A stretch of 23,423 nt of DNA from a virus: positions 9,122 through 32,544 of the IMG/VR virus record IMGVR_UViG_3300029319_006298. The stretch is one strand, 5' to 3'. Position numbers and translations under genes: made by a program. Positions 8,801 to 23,423 of this stretch are shown here, in pieces. The notes under the pieces are model-generated. The model ran no database searches. It was not told where the DNA came from and saw only the letters and a program-made list of their open reading frames with translations. Each line of letters begins with the position of its first letter. Position 1 is the stretch's first letter.

Positions 8801-9681
8801 TGCCAAAAAGAACAAAGACAAACGAGATTACCCAAACATCAGTGCCTATTCGCCCATCAACGCTTGAGACAATTGATTTTGCCATCTTCAATTATGTAAA
8901 AGATAATTTAAACATACACGTTGATACCAACGAAGGATACAAGAGAGTTCCCGTCATCTTTCAGACTCAAGAAAGGCCAGTGATGGTTAAGAAAAGTCCA
9001 GATCTCCGTGAGGCAGGCTTTGGCGCACACGATTCACTGATTTACCCTCTTATATCAATTCAGAGAACTTCTGTCAACAAAGAAGTAACAAGAAGAGGAA
9101 AATATTATTCTCCGCTGCCACAAAACGCTGACGGCTCTATGGGACGCATACAGATAGCCAGAACAGTCAACCAACTCAAAACTAGAGACAGGGCTAACGC
9201 AGATTCTATTCGTCGATCTGCAAGTGGAACCGACGCTAATAAAAAGACATTTCCTAGAGAAAGTGAAAGAGTAGTGTATGATGTGTACTCAATCCCTGCA
9301 CCAATCTATCTTGATATAGGATATCAGATTAGCATGAGGTCAGAGTATATCCAGCAGATGAATGAAATGTCTACGCACTTCATGGTTACAGGCGGCGCAA
9401 GAAATTATTTTATTTTAGAGCATGAGGGTCATAGGTACGAGGCATTTGTACAAGCCGACTTCACACAGGAAAACAATGCCGCTTCCCTTGGTACGGACGA
9501 AAGAATGTTTACTAGCAATGTTACTATTCAAGTTCTTGGCTACATTCTTGATCAGGAAAAGATAGAGTCGGCAATTAAGATTGATCAAAGCCCCGCTGAG
9601 ATAGTGATTGGTAGGGAACGTGCAGTTTTAGCCGATGAAATACCTTTCCATCTAGACATAGACACTAAGATAAGGCGATAA
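8800..9681 (+). CDS. 15: Tail completion/sheath stabiliser protein (gp15-like)
   Basis: A 293-residue protein similar in length to T4 gp15 (272 residues), which forms the hexamer that closes the top of the tail and meets the neck. Supporting pattern: an N-terminal helix (FAIFNYVKDNL), the strand YKRVPVIF, LIYPLISIQRTSV, a disordered charged middle (about residues 105-160), then the paired strands VYDVYSIPAPIYLDIGYQIS and the helix YIQQMNEMSTHF, ending with NVTIQVLGYIL. This order of strands and helix is seen in gp15-like and tail-terminator folds. It follows gp13- and gp14-like genes as in T4. In T4 the terminase genes 16 and 17 follow gp15; here the sheath gene follows instead, after a 109-base gap. 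Confidence 0.72.
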   Translation: MPKRTKTNEITQTSVPIRPSTLETIDFAIFNYVKDNLNIHVDTNEGYKRVPVIFQTQERPVMVKKSPDLREAGFGAHDSLIYPLISIQRTSVNKEVTRRGKYYSPLPQNADGSMGRIQIARTVNQLKTRDRANADSIRRSASGTDANKKTFPRESERVVYDVYSIPAPIYLDIGYQISMRSEYIQQMNEMSTHFMVTGGARNYFILEHEGHRYEAFVQADFTQENNAASLGTDERMFTSNVTIQVLGYILDQEKIESAIKIDQSPAEIVIGRERAVLADEIPFHLDIDTKIRR

Positions 9682-9790: not shown

Positions 9791-12700
9791 ATGTCAGAAC
9801 GCAAATTCAAGTTTATCTCGCCAGGAGTATACACCAGTGAGATCGACAATAGCCAACTCCCTAAAGTACCCGATCCAATCGGTCCAGTTATTATTGGTCG
9901 TACCCGCAAGGGTCCTGCCTTCAAGCCAGTAACCGTTAACTCGTTTGAAGAATTCATACAAGTCTTCGGCGATCCTATTGCAGGCGGCAAAGGCGGAGAT
10001 GTATGGAGAGACGGTAGTGAATTAGCGCCAACTTACGCTAGTTTTGCAGCACAAGCATGGCTTAAGAATAGCAATGCTGTAACTGTTGTTCGTTTGTTAG
10101 GGCAACAGCACCCTGATGTTAGTGATGGTGCAGGAACCGCAGGGGTAGCTGGCTATGACTTTGATGGAGTTGATGACAGTAATTCCTCACAAGGATCGTA
10201 TGGTCTGTTTGTGTGGCCATCCTCTTCGGTGGCTGTAACACAAGACACACAGGTGTCCCTCTCTGGTACGCTCGCTGCCGTGTTCTACCTAGAGGAAGGC
10301 AGGATCATTCTCAGTGGCACAAATGTTCGAGGTGCCATGACAGCCTCTGGTTGTCAGTTGTTCAAGTCAGACGCTAATGGTGAGTTCGTGGCTCAGATTC
10401 AAGGCTCAGCAAATGGAGACGTACATGCTCCATCTGAAAAGGTCACATTTAACTTTGAGCCAAACAGTGATCGATTTATTAGAAAGGTGTTTAACACTAA
10501 CCCAACTCTAGTAAACGATGATGTTTCCACTGCTACTCTAGCAGATGGAACAAACCGCATCAACTATGTTCTAGGTGAGTCATTTGAGAGAAAAGTGCTA
10601 AAAGGTAGTCCATTTAGAGAACTATTTGTTACAGGCACAGCCTTTACGGAAGACGTCATGTTTGGTGCAATCATGCCATTGCAAAACCCAGCTAGCCCAT
10701 CGCAAGAGCATGGTGACTATAGCTTCTCTGCTACTAAGGCAACAACTGGGTACTTTATTTCCCAGGATCTCACAGATTCTTCAGGCTCTTATGCCCCTGA
10801 AAATCAACAACGCTTATTCCGCCTTGAGGCGCTTGACGTTGGAGAAGATATTCAGAAATCAATTAAAATCTCTATTCAAAACATAAAAGTATCTAACACC
10901 GTCGCCGACCCATACGGGACATTCGATGTTGTTATTCGTGATATCACAGATACTGATAACAGACAGAGAGTCTTAGAGCGGTTCTCTGGTTGTAATTTAA
11001 ACCCAGCGTCACCAAATTACGTTGCCAATAGAATTGGTGATCAGTATGAAGTGTATGATGCGGCTGAGAAGCGTAATCGTCGCTATGGCGAATACGCCAA
11101 CAAGTCTGACTATGTTAGAGTTGTTATGAATGGCGACGTTGAGCGTGGTGCAACTGATAGCCGCTTGTTGCCATTCGGCTTCTTCGGTCCTACTAAGTAC
11201 CGTGATGTTGAAATCGTTAGTGGATCAACATCCCTCTACTCCTATGGTCGATCTCAGCATGATGTAGCTGACCAGCTTGGTAAGAGTGTTCACAGTCTAG
11301 TTGATGGTGGCGGAACAGGCTTTGGCGACATGGTAAACTTTGGTGTTGAGGGTATCAGCCCCAGTGCCGCTCAATTGTTAGATCTAGGCAAGGTTAGCCT
11401 GTCAGCCAGTATTCGCTGGCCAGAACTTCCAACCGTGATTAGCTCTTCGCAAGGTGGTACAAACGCCAAAGAAAATGTACACTTTGGTGTCTATACTGGG
11501 CAAACGCTCGCAAACAATCGATTCAACCCAGAAATCAAAGATATTGTTAGAAGCCTTAGTAGGGAATTTAAAGGCTACACATCCGAGACTGCATTGGATA
11601 TAGCACACCGCAATGCTGATGCAGACGCAGATGATGCAGATGTTCGTATGGCAGACACTGCTGGTCAAACATCCACGGCAAGAATGCATTCATTCGTATT
11701 CTCGCTCGACGATGTTGGTCCAGTCCCAGGTAAGAGCAGCCTAGCTAAGCACCTATTTGGTCTCAGAAAGAAAGGCTTCTCATACTCTGCTGGTGCCGCA
11801 CACAACGCTGACGGCTCCCGTGCTGCAACCTTCACAACTGGCTCATATGTCAAAGTGTTGGATGCTGGCTACAACAACTTTACTACAGTGCTTGCAGGTG
11901 GGCATGATGGTATAAACATTAAAGAGTTAGAACCATTCAACAATACAAGAATGGGAACAGATGAAACAGCAAGTTATGCTCTACACTCTGTGATTCGTGC
12001 TCTAGACTTGGTTCGTGATGTTGAGGATGCCCAAGGTAATATCCTAGTAGCCCCAGGCATCACCAATACTGTGGTCACAGATAAAATGCTCGAAGTAGCT
12101 GAAGATCGTGGTGACATGCTAGCAGTGATTGACTTAGGTGGTGTTTATACCCCTGAAACTGAAAACACAAGCAACTACCAGACTCGTGCTGGTACCACCG
12201 TTAAGTCGGCTGTTGACACTCTCGTAGACCGTGAGATCAACACAAGCTACGGTGCTGCTTACTACCCATGGGTTCGTGCCCGTGATACCCTAACTGGCAA
12301 GCTTCTATGGCTACCACCTTCGATCCCAGCATTGGGCGCAATGTCCTTTACAGATCGAGTCGGTGCTCCATGGTTTGCCCCAGCAGGCTTGGCCCGTGGC
12401 GGTCTTTCTGATGGCGCAGGTGGTCTACCAATCATCGACGTCACCAAAAAGCTAACCTCCAAAGATCGTGACGATCTATACGCAGCAAACATTAATCCAA
12501 TCGCTAAGTTCCCAGCGGAAGGTATTGTAATCTTCGGTCAGAAGACACTACAAACCACCCCATCGGCACTTGATCGTGTTAATGTTCGCCGCCTAATGAT
12601 CTTCATCAAGCGTGAGATAAGCCGTGTGGCAGCTAGAATTGTGTTTGAACAGAACACTAACGAGACTTGGAATAGATTCTTAAGTGAAGCAGAGCCTATT

Positions 12701-12889
12701 CTTAGAAACGTTAAAGCTCAGTTCGGACTACAAGACTTTAGGCTCATATTGGACGAATCGACAACAACTCCAGATCTGATTGACAGAAACATCATTTATG
12801 CTAAGGTGCTTCTCAAGCCAACCAGAACTGCTGAGTTCTTCGCAATCGACTTCAGTATCGCAAGATCAGGAGCATCTTTTGCAGATTAA
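9791..12889 (+). CDS. 18: Tail sheath protein (gp18-like), unusually long
   Basis: A 1032-residue contractile tail sheath protein; T4 gp18 has 659 residues. The N-terminus is typical (FKFISPGVYTSEID, then GPVIIGRTRKGPAF and the FEEFIQVFGDP strand). The C-terminal domain (from about residue 886) is also typical: LTSKDRDDLYAANINPIAKF, GIVIFGQKTLQ, RVNVRRLMIFIKREISRVA, WNRFLSEAEPIL and a closing strand with AKVLLKPTRTAEFFAIDFSI. The extra length lies in the middle, where Ser/Gly/Asp-rich beta segments suggest inserted surface domains. Sheath subunits stack on gp19 and contract to drive the tube through the cell envelope. The SD is GAGGAG about ten bases upstream of ATG. The tube gene follows 39 bases downstream with an almost identical leader. 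Confidence 0.95.
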   Translation: MSERKFKFISPGVYTSEIDNSQLPKVPDPIGPVIIGRTRKGPAFKPVTVNSFEEFIQVFGDPIAGGKGGDVWRDGSELAPTYASFAAQAWLKNSNAVTVVRLLGQQHPDVSDGAGTAGVAGYDFDGVDDSNSSQGSYGLFVWPSSSVAVTQDTQVSLSGTLAAVFYLEEGRIILSGTNVRGAMTASGCQLFKSDANGEFVAQIQGSANGDVHAPSEKVTFNFEPNSDRFIRKVFNTNPTLVNDDVSTATLADGTNRINYVLGESFERKVLKGSPFRELFVTGTAFTEDVMFGAIMPLQNPASPSQEHGDYSFSATKATTGYFISQDLTDSSGSYAPENQQRLFRLEALDVGEDIQKSIKISIQNIKVSNTVADPYGTFDVVIRDITDTDNRQRVLERFSGCNLNPASPNYVANRIGDQYEVYDAAEKRNRRYGEYANKSDYVRVVMNGDVERGATDSRLLPFGFFGPTKYRDVEIVSGSTSLYSYGRSQHDVADQLGKSVHSLVDGGGTGFGDMVNFGVEGISPSAAQLLDLGKVSLSASIRWPELPTVISSSQGGTNAKENVHFGVYTGQTLANNRFNPEIKDIVRSLSREFKGYTSETALDIAHRNADADADDADVRMADTAGQTSTARMHSFVFSLDDVGPVPGKSSLAKHLFGLRKKGFSYSAGAAHNADGSRAATFTTGSYVKVLDAGYNNFTTVLAGGHDGINIKELEPFNNTRMGTDETASYALHSVIRALDLVRDVEDAQGNILVAPGITNTVVTDKMLEVAEDRGDMLAVIDLGGVYTPETENTSNYQTRAGTTVKSAVDTLVDREINTSYGAAYYPWVRARDTLTGKLLWLPPSIPALGAMSFTDRVGAPWFAPAGLARGGLSDGAGGLPIIDVTKKLTSKDRDDLYAANINPIAKFPAEGIVIFGQKTLQTTPSALDRVNVRRLMIFIKREISRVAARIVFEQNTNETWNRFLSEAEPILRNVKAQFGLQDFRLILDESTTTPDLIDRNIIYAKVLLKPTRTAEFFAIDFSIARSGASFAD

Positions 12890-18238: not shown

Positions 18239-18583
18239 ATGAGAAATAGATATTTCAATAGGCGAATCATTCTTAATGACGATGAAAACTACAAGAGAGA
18301 GTTTCTAGACAACAAAAGGGATGCAAAGGTTCTAAACCACTACGACACACCAGTTTTCAGATACCCAACAACCGAAGAGATGGCAGATCTTCAAATAATA
18401 GAGGTTATTTGGGCATCAAATTCTAGGCTATTCAAACTAGCAAATAAGTATTATAATGACCCTACACTTTGGTGGGTAATTGCAATGTTTAACCAAAAAC
18501 CAACTGAAGCGCATTTTGAACCAGGCGAGACAGTGTATGTGCCACTACCATTGGAACAAGTATTAAGGATTATGAGGGCGTAA
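18239..18583 (+). CDS. 53: Baseplate wedge protein with LysM-like domain (gp53-like)
   Basis: A 114-residue protein. The C-terminal half has the LysM-like pattern of gp53-type wedge proteins: SRLFKLANKYYNDPTLWWVI, AMFNQKPTEA and GETVYVPLPLEQVL, that is, a helix, the D-P-x-x-W-W-V-I segment, a second helix and a closing V-Y-V-P strand. T4 gp53 (196 residues) joins baseplate wedges together; its N-terminal part is reduced here. LysM-like domains in baseplate proteins need not bind peptidoglycan. A strong AGGAGG lies a few bases before ATG. The next gene starts one base after the stop. Confidence 0.78.
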   Translation: MRNRYFNRRIILNDDENYKREFLDNKRDAKVLNHYDTPVFRYPTTEEMADLQIIEVIWASNSRLFKLANKYYNDPTLWWVIAMFNQKPTEAHFEPGETVYVPLPLEQVLRIMRA

Positions 18584-18584
18584 A

Positions 18585-21359
18585 ATGGCCAGTAATGACG
18601 CAGAAGATAATGTAGCACTAAGAGGCAACACACAGGCTTACCTTGTTAATAGCCTGCGCCAATTACTACCAGCTATGCATAAGAAACGAGGTGGGCAGTA
18701 TACAGAGCACTTAGTTCATACTCGCTTTAGATCAACTGAGCTAGTTTCAGAATTCAATAAAACATCAGGCATTATGGATTACATGAACGCACTACCAGCC
18801 CAGTTAAGCGGACTTATGCCAAAAATAAGAATATTTTTAAGACAACCAGCAGGTGCTAACGGAAAACGTCGAGCAGACATACCCGTGCATTTTAGTGGAT
18901 ACACTTCTGCTACATATAAGCCTCCCTCGTCAACCGCTTCGGGTGGCAGGCTTAACATATTTGCTAAACAGGCCGAGGGTCGTGATGTTGGTATAACAAG
19001 ATTTCATGTTTCAATTGATAATAAATTTAAGTTTGCGTCTGTGCAAGCAAGTATGGAGCTTTATTTCCGAAACATGGCAGATTTATCTCAAGGACCCTAT
19101 CTTCACTTGATAAGGCTCATGAAAAAGACAGAGGGATCATATAAAAAAGAAGAGTACGATTTAAAGAAAAGAGCCAAATTTCTAGCCAACAAGCGAAAGG
19201 AAATGAGGCAACGGATAACTATTAAAGGGAAAAGAACAAAGGTGAGACCTGCAAAAGCTGTTTCTCCCGCAGCAGAGAGGATTGATCCCGCTCCACTAAA
19301 GGCTGTAATTGGCTGGGCCACCAGCAAAAACAATGAACTCCCACAAGATATTTCGGGTGCAACCGATACGAAAAGGCTTTATAAATTCCTAGAAAGATCT
19401 GCGTTAACATTATTACTAAACGTAAATAAATATAGTATTGATTTTGGCGATAAAGGTGAGGTAAAACTATCAATAGAGATGACTGGTTACGCTGATGAGG
19501 CTCTTGCGGGCACTAATGAAGCTAGTATATTCACTAACCCTTGGGACGTAACGAGGGGGAGTGTTAACAACGTTGGTGTTAAAGGTAAAAAATATCAAGG
19601 GGCTCCCACTGGAATAAAAAACCAATCAACTATTAAGCCTGTGTCTGTTCAGGAAATATTTGGAGAGAGACTTGACAAATTAAACCTTGTAGACGTGCCA
19701 ACGTTGCTAGTGGACCCACTAGCCGCAGGCGCATCGGCGAAGGCAAATAAAAGTAAAAATCCAAAGAAAGCGGTAGGTGCTACATTTGTCTCAGACCAGA
19801 ACGGTTATCTAACTAGTCTTTTAGCGGAGTTGAAAACGAACGTACAAGGCCTTGCAGCCGCCGATCTCGCAAAAACTAAAGTTAAGATAGATACAAAAGT
19901 ATTAAAGCACCTTATCGACATCACCGAAACGGATATACAAATAATACAATTGCTGGCTGATACCTCTTCTGGTAGGATTCTTAACGAAATGAGAGAGAAT
20001 TTATCTAAATTTAAGAAAATATACAAAGCAACTGGAGAGGCTAATAAAGGGAGTGTTTATAGAAATTTTCTAGAGCGCCTAGAAGCTGTTGGTGCCCTAA
20101 TGTCGATAACTGTAAAGATGGCTGATCTAGGCATAACGCTTGGGTTTGAGAGCAAGCCTAACCCAAACCCTGACCCTACTAATGCCACTATCGACACGAC
20201 AACAGTTGAAATCGACAGATCTCTTGTAAAGAACCGCTATATGACAAGCCCTCCAAATTTAGGCGGCGCAGCTTCGATTGCACATGCTACCAAGGAGGCC
20301 GCAGGGGGAATTTCTAAAGCCGAACGTGACAAGCTAATGAAAGCTAATGGGGTCGCCTCGGGTGCGCCATTTACTATCGCTCCCAACGCAGGCAAGAACC
20401 CATCTACTGCAACGGCGAGCATTGTCTTTGTCAGGCTTGGAGATATTATAGACACAGCTTTCCATAGCTCTGGGTTCTTCACGCACAACAAAGGCAAGAA
20501 AGATGGCACATTTAGAGTAGTTTTAGATACCTTATATTTAAATCTCCCTGGGACATCTAGAAACAAATTGACGCCAATTAGCTTAGCAGATATACCAATT
20601 CAATTATCAGCATTTGAATATTTCTTTTTTGAAAAATATGTTAAGAAAAACGCTGTTAACGTGCCGCTTCGGGGCTTTTTAGATGAGCTTATGAGTTTTG
20701 TCGCTGCCGAAATGAGCAACTCTGGTATACTAGGTGAGGATACTAAATTTGATCCTATGATACTGCCGTTTACTGCCCCTAACGTTTATGGAAGACCGTT
20801 GCGCCCTAAGAGGACCTATACAAGAACATCCAGAGAATTTGTAAGTTCAGACAGAAACCCAAGAGGTTTCGCTGCCAAGCGAGAGGCAGAAGCATCAATG
20901 GGCATGGAGACGTTAAATAACTACTTGGTACTTTCTCTGATACAGAACCCTAGAAGGCACGGCAACTCGAAAAAAGATGCAGCAAGAGGTATTTACCATT
21001 TAGTCTTAGCCGCAGGACGTGGACCCGTTAAAGCAATTAAGTTTAGCGAACAGGACACCTCCGAGCACATTAGGACCATGAATATACGTGATGGGTCTGC
21101 TGATTTTCCCACTGTGCCACAGAATGCAACCGTAGACTTAGTTGGTGCTCCGCATTTCTGGCAAGGACAACTGGTCTATATTGACGCAGATTATGCGATG
21201 CCAAATGCATCAGTTGTTATGGGAATTGGTGGGTATTACATAGTTACGAAGGTGACGCATGATTTGGATGCTGGCAATTTCACAACAAAATTGGAATGCC
21301 GTTGGCAAGCTTACAAAGAACTGAAAGGAAAGGCAACTTCCAAGAGGAGTAGTAACTAA
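18585..21359 (+). CDS. Large baseplate hub-like structural protein
   Basis: A 924-residue protein. Two regions look like tail-tube-type beta domains: GITRFHVSIDNKFKFASVQA with MELYFRNMADL (about residues 140-170) and VNKYSIDFGDKGEVKLSIEM followed by a TGYAD turn (about residues 280-305). A Lys-rich helical stretch lies between them, and a long Lys/Asn-rich middle follows. The last 100 residues have WQGQLVYIDADYAMPN and GIGGYYIVTKVTHDLDAG followed by a strand with TKLECRW, resembling the end of gp27/gpD-type hub proteins, where such a hairpin and a closing strand recur. I infer the central hub that links tube and spike; no lysozyme or peptidase motif is seen. It begins one base after the gp53-like stop, with a weak GAGGG. 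It overlaps the next gene by one base. Confidence 0.6.
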   Translation: MASNDAEDNVALRGNTQAYLVNSLRQLLPAMHKKRGGQYTEHLVHTRFRSTELVSEFNKTSGIMDYMNALPAQLSGLMPKIRIFLRQPAGANGKRRADIPVHFSGYTSATYKPPSSTASGGRLNIFAKQAEGRDVGITRFHVSIDNKFKFASVQASMELYFRNMADLSQGPYLHLIRLMKKTEGSYKKEEYDLKKRAKFLANKRKEMRQRITIKGKRTKVRPAKAVSPAAERIDPAPLKAVIGWATSKNNELPQDISGATDTKRLYKFLERSALTLLLNVNKYSIDFGDKGEVKLSIEMTGYADEALAGTNEASIFTNPWDVTRGSVNNVGVKGKKYQGAPTGIKNQSTIKPVSVQEIFGERLDKLNLVDVPTLLVDPLAAGASAKANKSKNPKKAVGATFVSDQNGYLTSLLAELKTNVQGLAAADLAKTKVKIDTKVLKHLIDITETDIQIIQLLADTSSGRILNEMRENLSKFKKIYKATGEANKGSVYRNFLERLEAVGALMSITVKMADLGITLGFESKPNPNPDPTNATIDTTTVEIDRSLVKNRYMTSPPNLGGAASIAHATKEAAGGISKAERDKLMKANGVASGAPFTIAPNAGKNPSTATASIVFVRLGDIIDTAFHSSGFFTHNKGKKDGTFRVVLDTLYLNLPGTSRNKLTPISLADIPIQLSAFEYFFFEKYVKKNAVNVPLRGFLDELMSFVAAEMSNSGILGEDTKFDPMILPFTAPNVYGRPLRPKRTYTRTSREFVSSDRNPRGFAAKREAEASMGMETLNNYLVLSLIQNPRRHGNSKKDAARGIYHLVLAAGRGPVKAIKFSEQDTSEHIRTMNIRDGSADFPTVPQNATVDLVGAPHFWQGQLVYIDADYAMPNASVVMGIGGYYIVTKVTHDLDAGNFTTKLECRWQAYKELKGKATSKRSSN

Positions 21360-22621
21360 TGACTAGGCCAATATCTTATGGCTCCAACGATCTTGGTTCG
21401 GGTGCTTCCTTTGTAGAGAAAAAAATATATTATCAAGAGACTTTCCCAGAAAACCTTATTGACAATCACATTTCTTTGTGGGATGATAATAGACTGTATG
21501 GCAGAGTAAACATAGATAATGAGATTATAGCTCTGAGAGAGGGTGCTTTGTCACCGCTACGTGGCACAAAAGGAGGTGCAGCCATGTTTGCACTTGGGTT
21601 CGTGGCTGATGCGTTTGCAGATTTGCGTGACAAAATGAAAGCATGTGCTAAATCAGGGCAAGTAGCGCCCCAAGGGCCTTTTGCTGATCTACAAATTGCA
21701 AAAGGCTGGAGTAGTGTTAATGCAGAATACGATAGATATATGAAAAACCAAGTATTCACCGCATTTAGCGAGCAATTTGTTGCTTTCAAGTCACAATCCA
21801 GCCAGATAAAAGACTTTTCTGGTTTTTTAAAAGTTTTTGGTGGTTTTGCTAAGCACTTAGCTAAACTATTACCATTCACCAGAACAGGGTTCATGGAAAG
21901 TAGGCTTTGCACTCCTTATGTGTCTGGACTTGTCATGGATATAGCTGTTGAAGACTATTCAGACGATTTTGTTAAGTCAACGGAGTATGTAAATGATCCA
22001 AACTTTTTATTTTTTGCAGATTCAGCAAAACAATTTGGTTTTCTCATAGACCGCAATGCCCCTTGGCGGCTCATAGCTAATTTAGGGTCTGATGCAATGC
22101 AAAGATATGCCGCTAAAAGCGGGATAGAGTTGACTGATGATAGAATACTGAATATCGGGATCATACAGGATGCTCTTTATCGAAGAACAAGTCCTGTTGA
22201 TATGAATATCCTTGCGGCATACCTGAAAGACATGTATAATGCCTATGTTGAAAGAAATCCATATGTTTTTGAGCAAATAATGAAAGAAGATCATCGCTGC
22301 GGCTCTGTTAGTAAGATATATCAAAGAGAACAAATAGACGATATGGTGCTAGATGAATCTTTTGTTATAGGCAAGTACAAATACAGGTGGGCTGTAAGGG
22401 GATATTATTATTTTAGAACTTTTGAGCGGAATATAAAAAACAGCCTTGCACAAGATAAAAAGAATTTAAGATTCTTATATGATATTATGACAGCGATGCC
22501 TGGTGTGAGGGGGTATACAGAAGCAGTCAAGACTTTGGAGAACAACATTATTGGTCCGTTTGCGCCATTACCTGTACCTCCTCAAGTATTTGACGAGACC
22601 AAGATGATACCAAATTATTAA
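21359..22621 (+). CDS. Virion structural protein of environmental T4-like phages, function unknown
   Basis: A 420-residue protein. The middle and C-terminal parts contain segments that I recall from structural proteins of environmental T4-like phages: LPFTRTGFMESRLCTPYVSG, a DYSDDFVKSTEYVNDPNFLF stretch, and the FGFLIDRNAPWRLIANLGSD core. The N-terminus has a short strand pair (KKIYYQETFPENLIDNHISL). It contains no obvious enzymatic motif, signal or coiled coil. Its order after the hub gene suggests a baseplate or tail-tip protein. The ATG overlaps the hub stop (TAATG) with GAGGAG upstream, so it is translationally coupled. The stop lies at the left arm of an inverted repeat that encloses the polymerase start. 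Confidence 0.65.
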   Translation: MTRPISYGSNDLGSGASFVEKKIYYQETFPENLIDNHISLWDDNRLYGRVNIDNEIIALREGALSPLRGTKGGAAMFALGFVADAFADLRDKMKACAKSGQVAPQGPFADLQIAKGWSSVNAEYDRYMKNQVFTAFSEQFVAFKSQSSQIKDFSGFLKVFGGFAKHLAKLLPFTRTGFMESRLCTPYVSGLVMDIAVEDYSDDFVKSTEYVNDPNFLFFADSAKQFGFLIDRNAPWRLIANLGSDAMQRYAAKSGIELTDDRILNIGIIQDALYRRTSPVDMNILAAYLKDMYNAYVERNPYVFEQIMKEDHRCGSVSKIYQREQIDDMVLDESFVIGKYKYRWAVRGYYYFRTFERNIKNSLAQDKKNLRFLYDIMTAMPGVRGYTEAVKTLENNIIGPFAPLPVPPQVFDETKMIPNY

Positions 22622-22658
22622 CATAAGCTACAGATTGTGGTAAAAGTAAGTTATGTTA
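22619..22658 (+). promoter_or_regulatory. Inverted repeat enclosing the polymerase start codon
   Basis: TAACATAA (22619-22626, including the upstream stop codon) and TTATGTTA (22651-22658, including the ATG of the polymerase gene) are perfect reverse complements with a 24-base loop. The stem is AT-only apart from one G-C pair, so it is weak. It could couple polymerase translation to the upstream gene. Confidence 0.35.
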
Positions 22659-23423
22659 TTTCAGACAATAGACGACAAGAAAGAATGTACAGGCATCTTC
22701 CACGATGGGAGGATGGTGTACAACCCTGAAGAATTCCCAGATAACCTGACAAGGACTTGGAAATATACAGCCTCTATGGAGGGATACCGAGGGGTAGACT
22801 ATGCAGAGATATATGTTATGGGCAAGGCTATTGACGAGGTATGCCCAGAGCACTTAAAAGAGGAGTGGGAAATCATAAAAAGCAGAATGCAAGCGTTCTT
22901 TAAGGCCAATGCGACTGCCAAGATCAGCACATCACAGCACTGCTTGTTCGATCTAATCCCAGAAAAGTTTCTTAAAGACTTGTGTAACATAAAGAATCAG
23001 ATTAGCGATTGGGTCATTGACCACAACAAAAGACCACCAAACTACAGACACCTGCTGTCCACGTTGGAAATGCTGCGAGATATTGAGGTGTACGATCTTA
23101 ATATTGATCCACTAAAAGTTAGAGCGATTAAGAATGATCCAGCCGCCAGGTTAGTGCTAGAACGACTGAGAAAAGGGTATACATCCATTAAGTACAATCT
23201 GTTCTCTACTAAGACGGGTCGCCTAACTTGCACCAATAAGTCGTTCCCAATCTTTACCCTGAAGAAAGAGCATCGTAAAATTATAACACCGTCAAATGAT
23301 ATGTTGGTGGAGTTAGATTTTAATGGGGCAGAGTTGAGGACTATGTTGGCACTGAGCGGACAAGATCAGCCAACTGGCGATGTGCATGACTGGAATGTAA
23401 AAAATGTTTTTGATAGCCAAGTT
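22653..23423 (+). CDS. Family A DNA polymerase, 3' truncated by window edge, without N-terminal exonuclease domain
   Basis: The frame is open from ATG 22653 to the end of the window (257 codons). Residues 188-191 are TGRL, as in Escherichia coli Pol I around Arg668. Motif A follows: D222-F-N-G-A-E227-L-R, matching D705-Y-S-Q-I-E710-L-R with the same five-residue step. GDVHDWN with His245 corresponds to the KDIHRAT segment around His734. The first 187 residues can hold only the thumb and early palm, so no 3'-5' exonuclease domain is encoded in front. T4 and its close relatives use a family B polymerase. Rhodothermus phage RM378, as I recall, has a family A polymerase split into separate exonuclease and polymerase genes; this gene has the same shape. 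No strong SD is visible; other starts downstream would shorten the thumb. Confidence 0.85.
   Translation, partial: MLFQTIDDKKECTGIFHDGRMVYNPEEFPDNLTRTWKYTASMEGYRGVDYAEIYVMGKAIDEVCPEHLKEEWEIIKSRMQAFFKANATAKISTSQHCLFDLIPEKFLKDLCNIKNQISDWVIDHNKRPPNYRHLLSTLEMLRDIEVYDLNIDPLKVRAIKNDPAARLVLERLRKGYTSIKYNLFSTKTGRLTCTNKSFPIFTLKKEHRKIITPSNDMLVELDFNGAELRTMLALSGQDQPTGDVHDWNVKNVFDSQV

Follow-up and report, generated by a model that had tools for sequence, protein, structure and literature searches.

A gene for a small family A DNA polymerase begins at the right end of the window, the 23,423-nt stretch of viral DNA analyzed here, and by homology the protein is of the divPolA1 type, a member of a family already described in 2024. 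We consider it probably an accessory polymerase of a replication-recombination operon, with bulk DNA synthesis carried out by the phage's DnaE. The window covers positions 9122 to 32544 of the 32,544-bp IMG/VR record IMGVR_UViG_3300029319_006298 (G000), and its end is the contig end. Yutin et al. (Virol J 2024, 21:200; PMC11348598) named divPolA1 as an extra polymerase in 14 genomes, each of which also has a regular polymerase from family A, B or C; three GOV bins are on their list. In the published family the catalytic residues are kept, the 3'-5' exonuclease is inactivated and the thumb is truncated (PMC11348598).

The open reading frame starts with an ATG, codes for 257 amino acids and remains open up to the contig end (Table 1). 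This fragment matches PHROG phrog_17 (DNA polymerase) at 1.3e-9 and Pfam DNA_pol_A at 2e-4, with the complete 405-aa homologue from a relative (G001) at 4.6e-15. The initial annotation of this DNA described a polymerase-only family A protein next to T4-like baseplate genes, and both descriptions hold. Profile matches and catalytic residues identify the protein, no DEDD exonuclease motif was found in it, and T188-G189-R190-L191, D222, E227 and G242-D-V-H245 are at the positions first assigned to them. The polymerase gene has T4-like tail genes for its neighbors, encoding sheath, tube, hub, tape measure and baseplate wedge. The Met about 190 residues before TGRL also begins the homologues, and 22621 is the last position of the upstream gene; a frameshift or misassembly hiding a fused, in-frame exonuclease was therefore rejected. 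The four large relatives compared all have that upstream gene in the corresponding position. An Rfam search of the window gave no match. Just before the left edge of the window, a run of N (G000, L002 ~9110) breaks the portal gene.

Table 1. Features of the window, numbered from its first nucleotide.
Feature	Position	Strand	Basis
Tail sheath, structural context	9791..12889	+	
Baseplate wedge subunit (phrog_7145), in the tail block preceding polA	18239..18583	+	
Gene immediately upstream of polA, 420 aa, no family match	21359..22621	+	
divPolA1-type family A DNA polymerase, residues 1-257 of ~405	22653..23423	+	ORF, homologues, profiles
N-terminal region, ~residues 1-130, reduced, without DEDD exonuclease motif	22653..23042	+	alignment, model
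TGRL motif, residues 188-191	23214..23225	+	ORF, alignment
Motif A region, residues 217-229 (D222, E227, R229)	23301..23339	+	ORF, alignment
GDVH segment, residues 242-245	23376..23387	+	ORF

Motifs B and C of the window polymerase fall past the contig end and were read from relatives. Homologues with 35-92% identity share the start and have both motifs complete, and the motifs are present in every full-length homologue. Four viral contigs encode a homologue at 83-84% identity. The largest of them, G001 (174,625 bp), codes for a complete 405-aa polymerase with motif B SREESKVLFFSWLYG and motif C LHDAIVVD. Used as a query, this protein retrieved 18 further contigs at 36-40% identity, and an alignment-based search of IMG/VR found at least 579 stretches matching the marine divPolA1-type polymerase. 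Conservation was counted in 95 distinct sequences of 391-431 aa, except one of 369, with G001 numbering. R190, D222, E227, R229, R259, K263, F267, Y271, Q325, H355 and D356 are invariant in all 95. The Glu that follows the motif C Asp (E883 in Klenow) is Ser in 63 sequences, Ala in 22, Glu in nine and Asn in one. This replacement, by Ser or Ala in 85 of the 95, is new here and marks the only departure from a usual active site; judged from the residues, activity could be reduced in most members.

The N-terminus opens with an almost invariant FQxxDxKxxC. No DEDD motif was found in the alignment of this region of about 130 aa, where D7 is the sole strongly conserved acidic residue, and hhalign could not align it reliably with canonical PolAs. 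On the published comparison of structures and the short strands of an AlphaFold2 model, the region may be an exonuclease remnant. The model, built from a 37-sequence alignment, has a pLDDT of 93 and a pTM of 0.90. Its top PDB matches are Klenow, Taq, Pol nu and the apicoplast polymerase (query TM-score ~0.5-0.7), and Pol theta is also among the structural matches. A full exonuclease together with a thumb would not fit into a chain of this size, and the thumb, judged by this length and not by residue-by-residue superposition, is predicted to be shortened. The protein thus resembles E. coli Pol I/Klenow and Taq Pol I in its family A palm and fingers with motifs A, B and C (Foldseek E ~1e-13 to 1e-12) but is without their active 3'-5' exonuclease domain and, as predicted, without their full thumb. 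Pol I also has a fused 5'-3' nuclease and HDE in motif C, whereas for the window type a 5'-3' exonuclease is encoded separately in the operon and motif C mostly reads HDS or HDA.

Assignment to divPolA1 rests on a blastp match to gp1 of the Flavobacterium phage vB_FspM_immuto (6e-10, 26% identity over 214 aa), which occupies the same syntenic place, and on a palm-region tree. In the tree, which used a small set of canonical PolAs and has some long branches, the window protein groups with that of G001 (99/97). A 99/98 branch separates the marine proteins, Immuto gp1, Mel-JY01 WWT39333 and a 452-aa protein of LR756508 from the canonical PolAs. In Immuto the tail genes are followed by the 441-aa PolA (gp1), SSB, UvsX, a 5'-3' exonuclease, DnaB and RNR, and the phage also has a complete Pol I with an exonuclease motif (gp71). 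Like Immuto gp1, the marine proteins retain both catalytic Asp residues, have lost the exonuclease, precede the same downstream operon and are extra to a regular polymerase. They differ in forming a separate branch, with 26% identity to gp1 and 36-40% between the main marine lineages, and in keeping the equivalents of E710, R754 and H881, all lost from gp1. The thumb is short in the published family; in the window's clade its shortening is a prediction. The partner polymerase is DnaE in every marine-clade contig that reaches its place, whereas it is of family A, B or C across divPolA1. The divPolA2 proteins of barbaviruses (PMC11348598) are likewise small extra PolAs without an exonuclease that accompany a regular polymerase, but they have another N-terminal domain, a variable gene neighborhood and PolB as the partner (PMC11348598).

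Two further homologues were located in named genomes. In the Microcystis phage Mel-JY01, WWT39333 (PP395634 50397-51623; L199:13398-14624), annotated as hypothetical, is a divPolA1 homologue at 5e-22; WWT39336 was ruled out as the homologue on translation. Mel-JY01 also has a family B polymerase. The 452-aa divPolA1-like protein (1.8e-38) of the 484-kb uncultured phage LR756508 is encoded at 240919-242277 (L198:5428-6786).

Downstream of polA, past the end of the window, a gp32-like SSB, UvsX/RecA, a 5'-3' exonuclease and DnaB are encoded in all four large relatives and in Immuto. The order of this operon is kept in G033, G043, G013 and G044 and in the cultured Immuto. A MoxR/CobS-type AAA ATPase gene beside one for a VWA/metallopeptidase-domain protein (L012:3026-5461) is also conserved throughout the clade, with about 52-70% identity.

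The relatives also encode a second polymerase. G001 codes at 49653-53087 (L010:9653-13087) for a complete DnaE (Pol III alpha) of 1144 aa with PHP, NTPase/palm, finger and HhH domains, which matches phrog_405 at 4e-225. PF07733 detects DnaE in 15 contigs, all 15 with the small PolA; in G018 and G023 the start of DnaE, at 86-91% identity, runs off the contig end. DnaE is thus found in 17 of 20 PolA contigs, and G032, G034 and G051 stop 0.5, 8.8 and 13.4 kb past polA. Wherever a contig reaches its place, the DnaE domain is found, 11.9-16.4 kb downstream of polA. DnaE is about 1140 aa long in these relatives and has 58-77% identity, against 38-39% for PolA. All 20 sequences have the full PHP motif HHDHEHCDH, a criterion of an active PHP domain (PMC12926913), and the 19 that cover the PDID motif and the third Asp conserve both. 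Throughout the clade the phage DnaE is kept with its PHP proofreading motif complete, and no DnaQ was found in G001. Just before dnaE is a gene of 125 aa (L010:9249-9626) with 83-85% identity in G018 and G023, far above the conservation of polA. DnaE is known from these relatives, the 32.5-kb contig of the window's own phage stopping short of the place, and we infer that this phage encodes it as well.

The initial annotation had this phage replicating with a split or proofreading-free family A polymerase, like the two-subunit enzyme of the Rhodothermus phage RM378, the exonuclease gene lying elsewhere in the genome. The complete DnaE of the relatives, with an intact PHP proofreading site, argues against the small PolA as the main replicase. 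Nor was a separate exonuclease found: PF01612, PF00929 and PF13482 (Pol I-type, DnaQ and RNase_H_2 exonucleases) have no match in G001 or G002, both incomplete, and thus give no hint of a two-subunit family A enzyme. These contigs are non-circular, with a gap between the ends of G001, so the absences are strong, not absolute. A profile search of G000, G001 and G002 for a family B polymerase such as gp43 found none. RM378 does have its polymerase and exonuclease domains in separate chains together with T4-related structural genes, but its split polymerase is of family B and not of family A. No PF00476 match was found in RM378, a PF00136 (family B) match lies at 79977-81137, and the frame at 21996-23045 (annotated as 'DNA polymerase' at 21996-22937) reads by eye like a family B exonuclease domain.

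Because the relatives carry a full-size replicase of the bacterial type, DnaE, the small PolA most likely has a helper's part, and genome copying is most likely left to another enzyme. From its sequence we expect the family A palm and fingers to be active, the thumb to be shortened and 3'-5' exonuclease function to be missing, and it would be an enzyme of low fidelity and low processivity. Bulk synthesis would fall to the phage's own DnaE, which would proofread with the PHP domain that it keeps intact. With a polymerase domain and a 5'-3' nuclease in a single operon and no proofreading, the set looks like a dismantled Pol I and suits gap filling, the replacement of primers and the extension of recombination intermediates. 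Acting with SSB and UvsX, the two most likely do the work of bacterial Pol I, gap filling and primer replacement, and/or the small PolA extends recombination intermediates made by UvsX. A point against such a helper role is that divPolA1 is a constant part of the replisome operon while the other polymerase varies between families A, B and C and DnaE is encoded outside the operon; divPolA1 could matter more than a helper would. The main rival is accordingly the reverse division of labor, in which divPolA1, free of proofreading or proofread in trans, is the main replicase and DnaE is accessory or a host-derived extra. Retention of divPolA1 when the other polymerase is swapped and its place in a conserved operon with SSB, UvsX, the 5'-3' exonuclease and the helicase favor this, and Yutin et al. 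called the role of the 'regular' polymerases in divPolA1 phages less obvious and left open which polymerase does what (PMC11348598). We nevertheless regard it as unlikely, given the predicted reduction of the thumb, the absence of an exonuclease in the protein, the lack of a separate exonuclease in G001 and G002, and a DnaE that is present wherever contigs reach its place, better conserved than PolA and intact in its catalytic and PHP sites.

The lost exonuclease and the predicted short thumb would also fit a polymerase specialized in lesion bypass or mutagenesis, of the kind seen in exonuclease-dead enzymes of family A. The structural matches include Pol nu and Pol theta, and exonuclease-dead bacterial Pol I and PolA2/APEX have been read as low-fidelity (PMC12926913). 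The closest structural matches, however, include the ordinary high-fidelity Klenow and Taq, and the gene sits in a replication operon and not in a damage-response setting, which makes this role improbable. Least probable of all is a catalytically weak or inactive protein with a structural role in the replisome. The motif C Glu is retained in just nine of the 95 sequences, the equivalents of E710, R754 and H881 are changed in Mel-JY01 and LR756508 as well as in Immuto gp1, and the N-terminal motif is almost invariant, as a structural role might have it; yet both catalytic Asp residues and the motif B Lys, Phe and Tyr are invariant in the marine clade and kept in the divergent trio. For the accessory role beside DnaE, which we retain, the analysis shows the sequence, the catalytic residues, the operon, the co-occurrence with DnaE and the complete PHP motif; the polymerase activity, the division of labor and the fidelity are inferred.

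The gene directly behind polA, past the window's end, codes for 271-312 aa and is present in 79 of 82 loci. In most of the 79 no more than 16 nt lie between its start and the polA stop, and the two genes often overlap. In G001 it lies at 35274-36104 (L005:11208-12038), with homologues in L200-L279; none was found in Immuto. Searches against Pfam and PHROGs recognized no family. An AlphaFold2 model (pLDDT 93.9) matches FtsZ, CetZ and TubZ in the PDB (E 9e-12, TM ~0.70-0.74). hhalign gives a weak match to E. coli FtsZ (E 0.009, probability 5%), with the nucleotide-loop glycines paired and FtsZ GGGTGTG opposite GxGxISGASL. On the strength of the model, a cryptic gene with a predicted FtsZ/tubulin fold directly behind polA is new here. 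GTP hydrolysis by its product is doubtful because the glycine-rich signature is degenerate. We tentatively suggest, with a chance well short of even, that in this marine phage group divPolA1 works in a pair with this co-translated, diverged protein, and that a filament-like protein might organize or position the accessory polymerase at sites of recombination or on the lagging strand.

When a polymerase-only PolA turns up close to the end of a contig, it need not be the enzyme with which the phage copies itself. The relatives of the window extend divPolA1 from the 14 described genomes to a very widespread marine clade, in which it stands beside a PHP-intact DnaE. Why several phage lineages keep a small exonuclease-less polymerase while the main one is swapped between families A, B and C is now testable.
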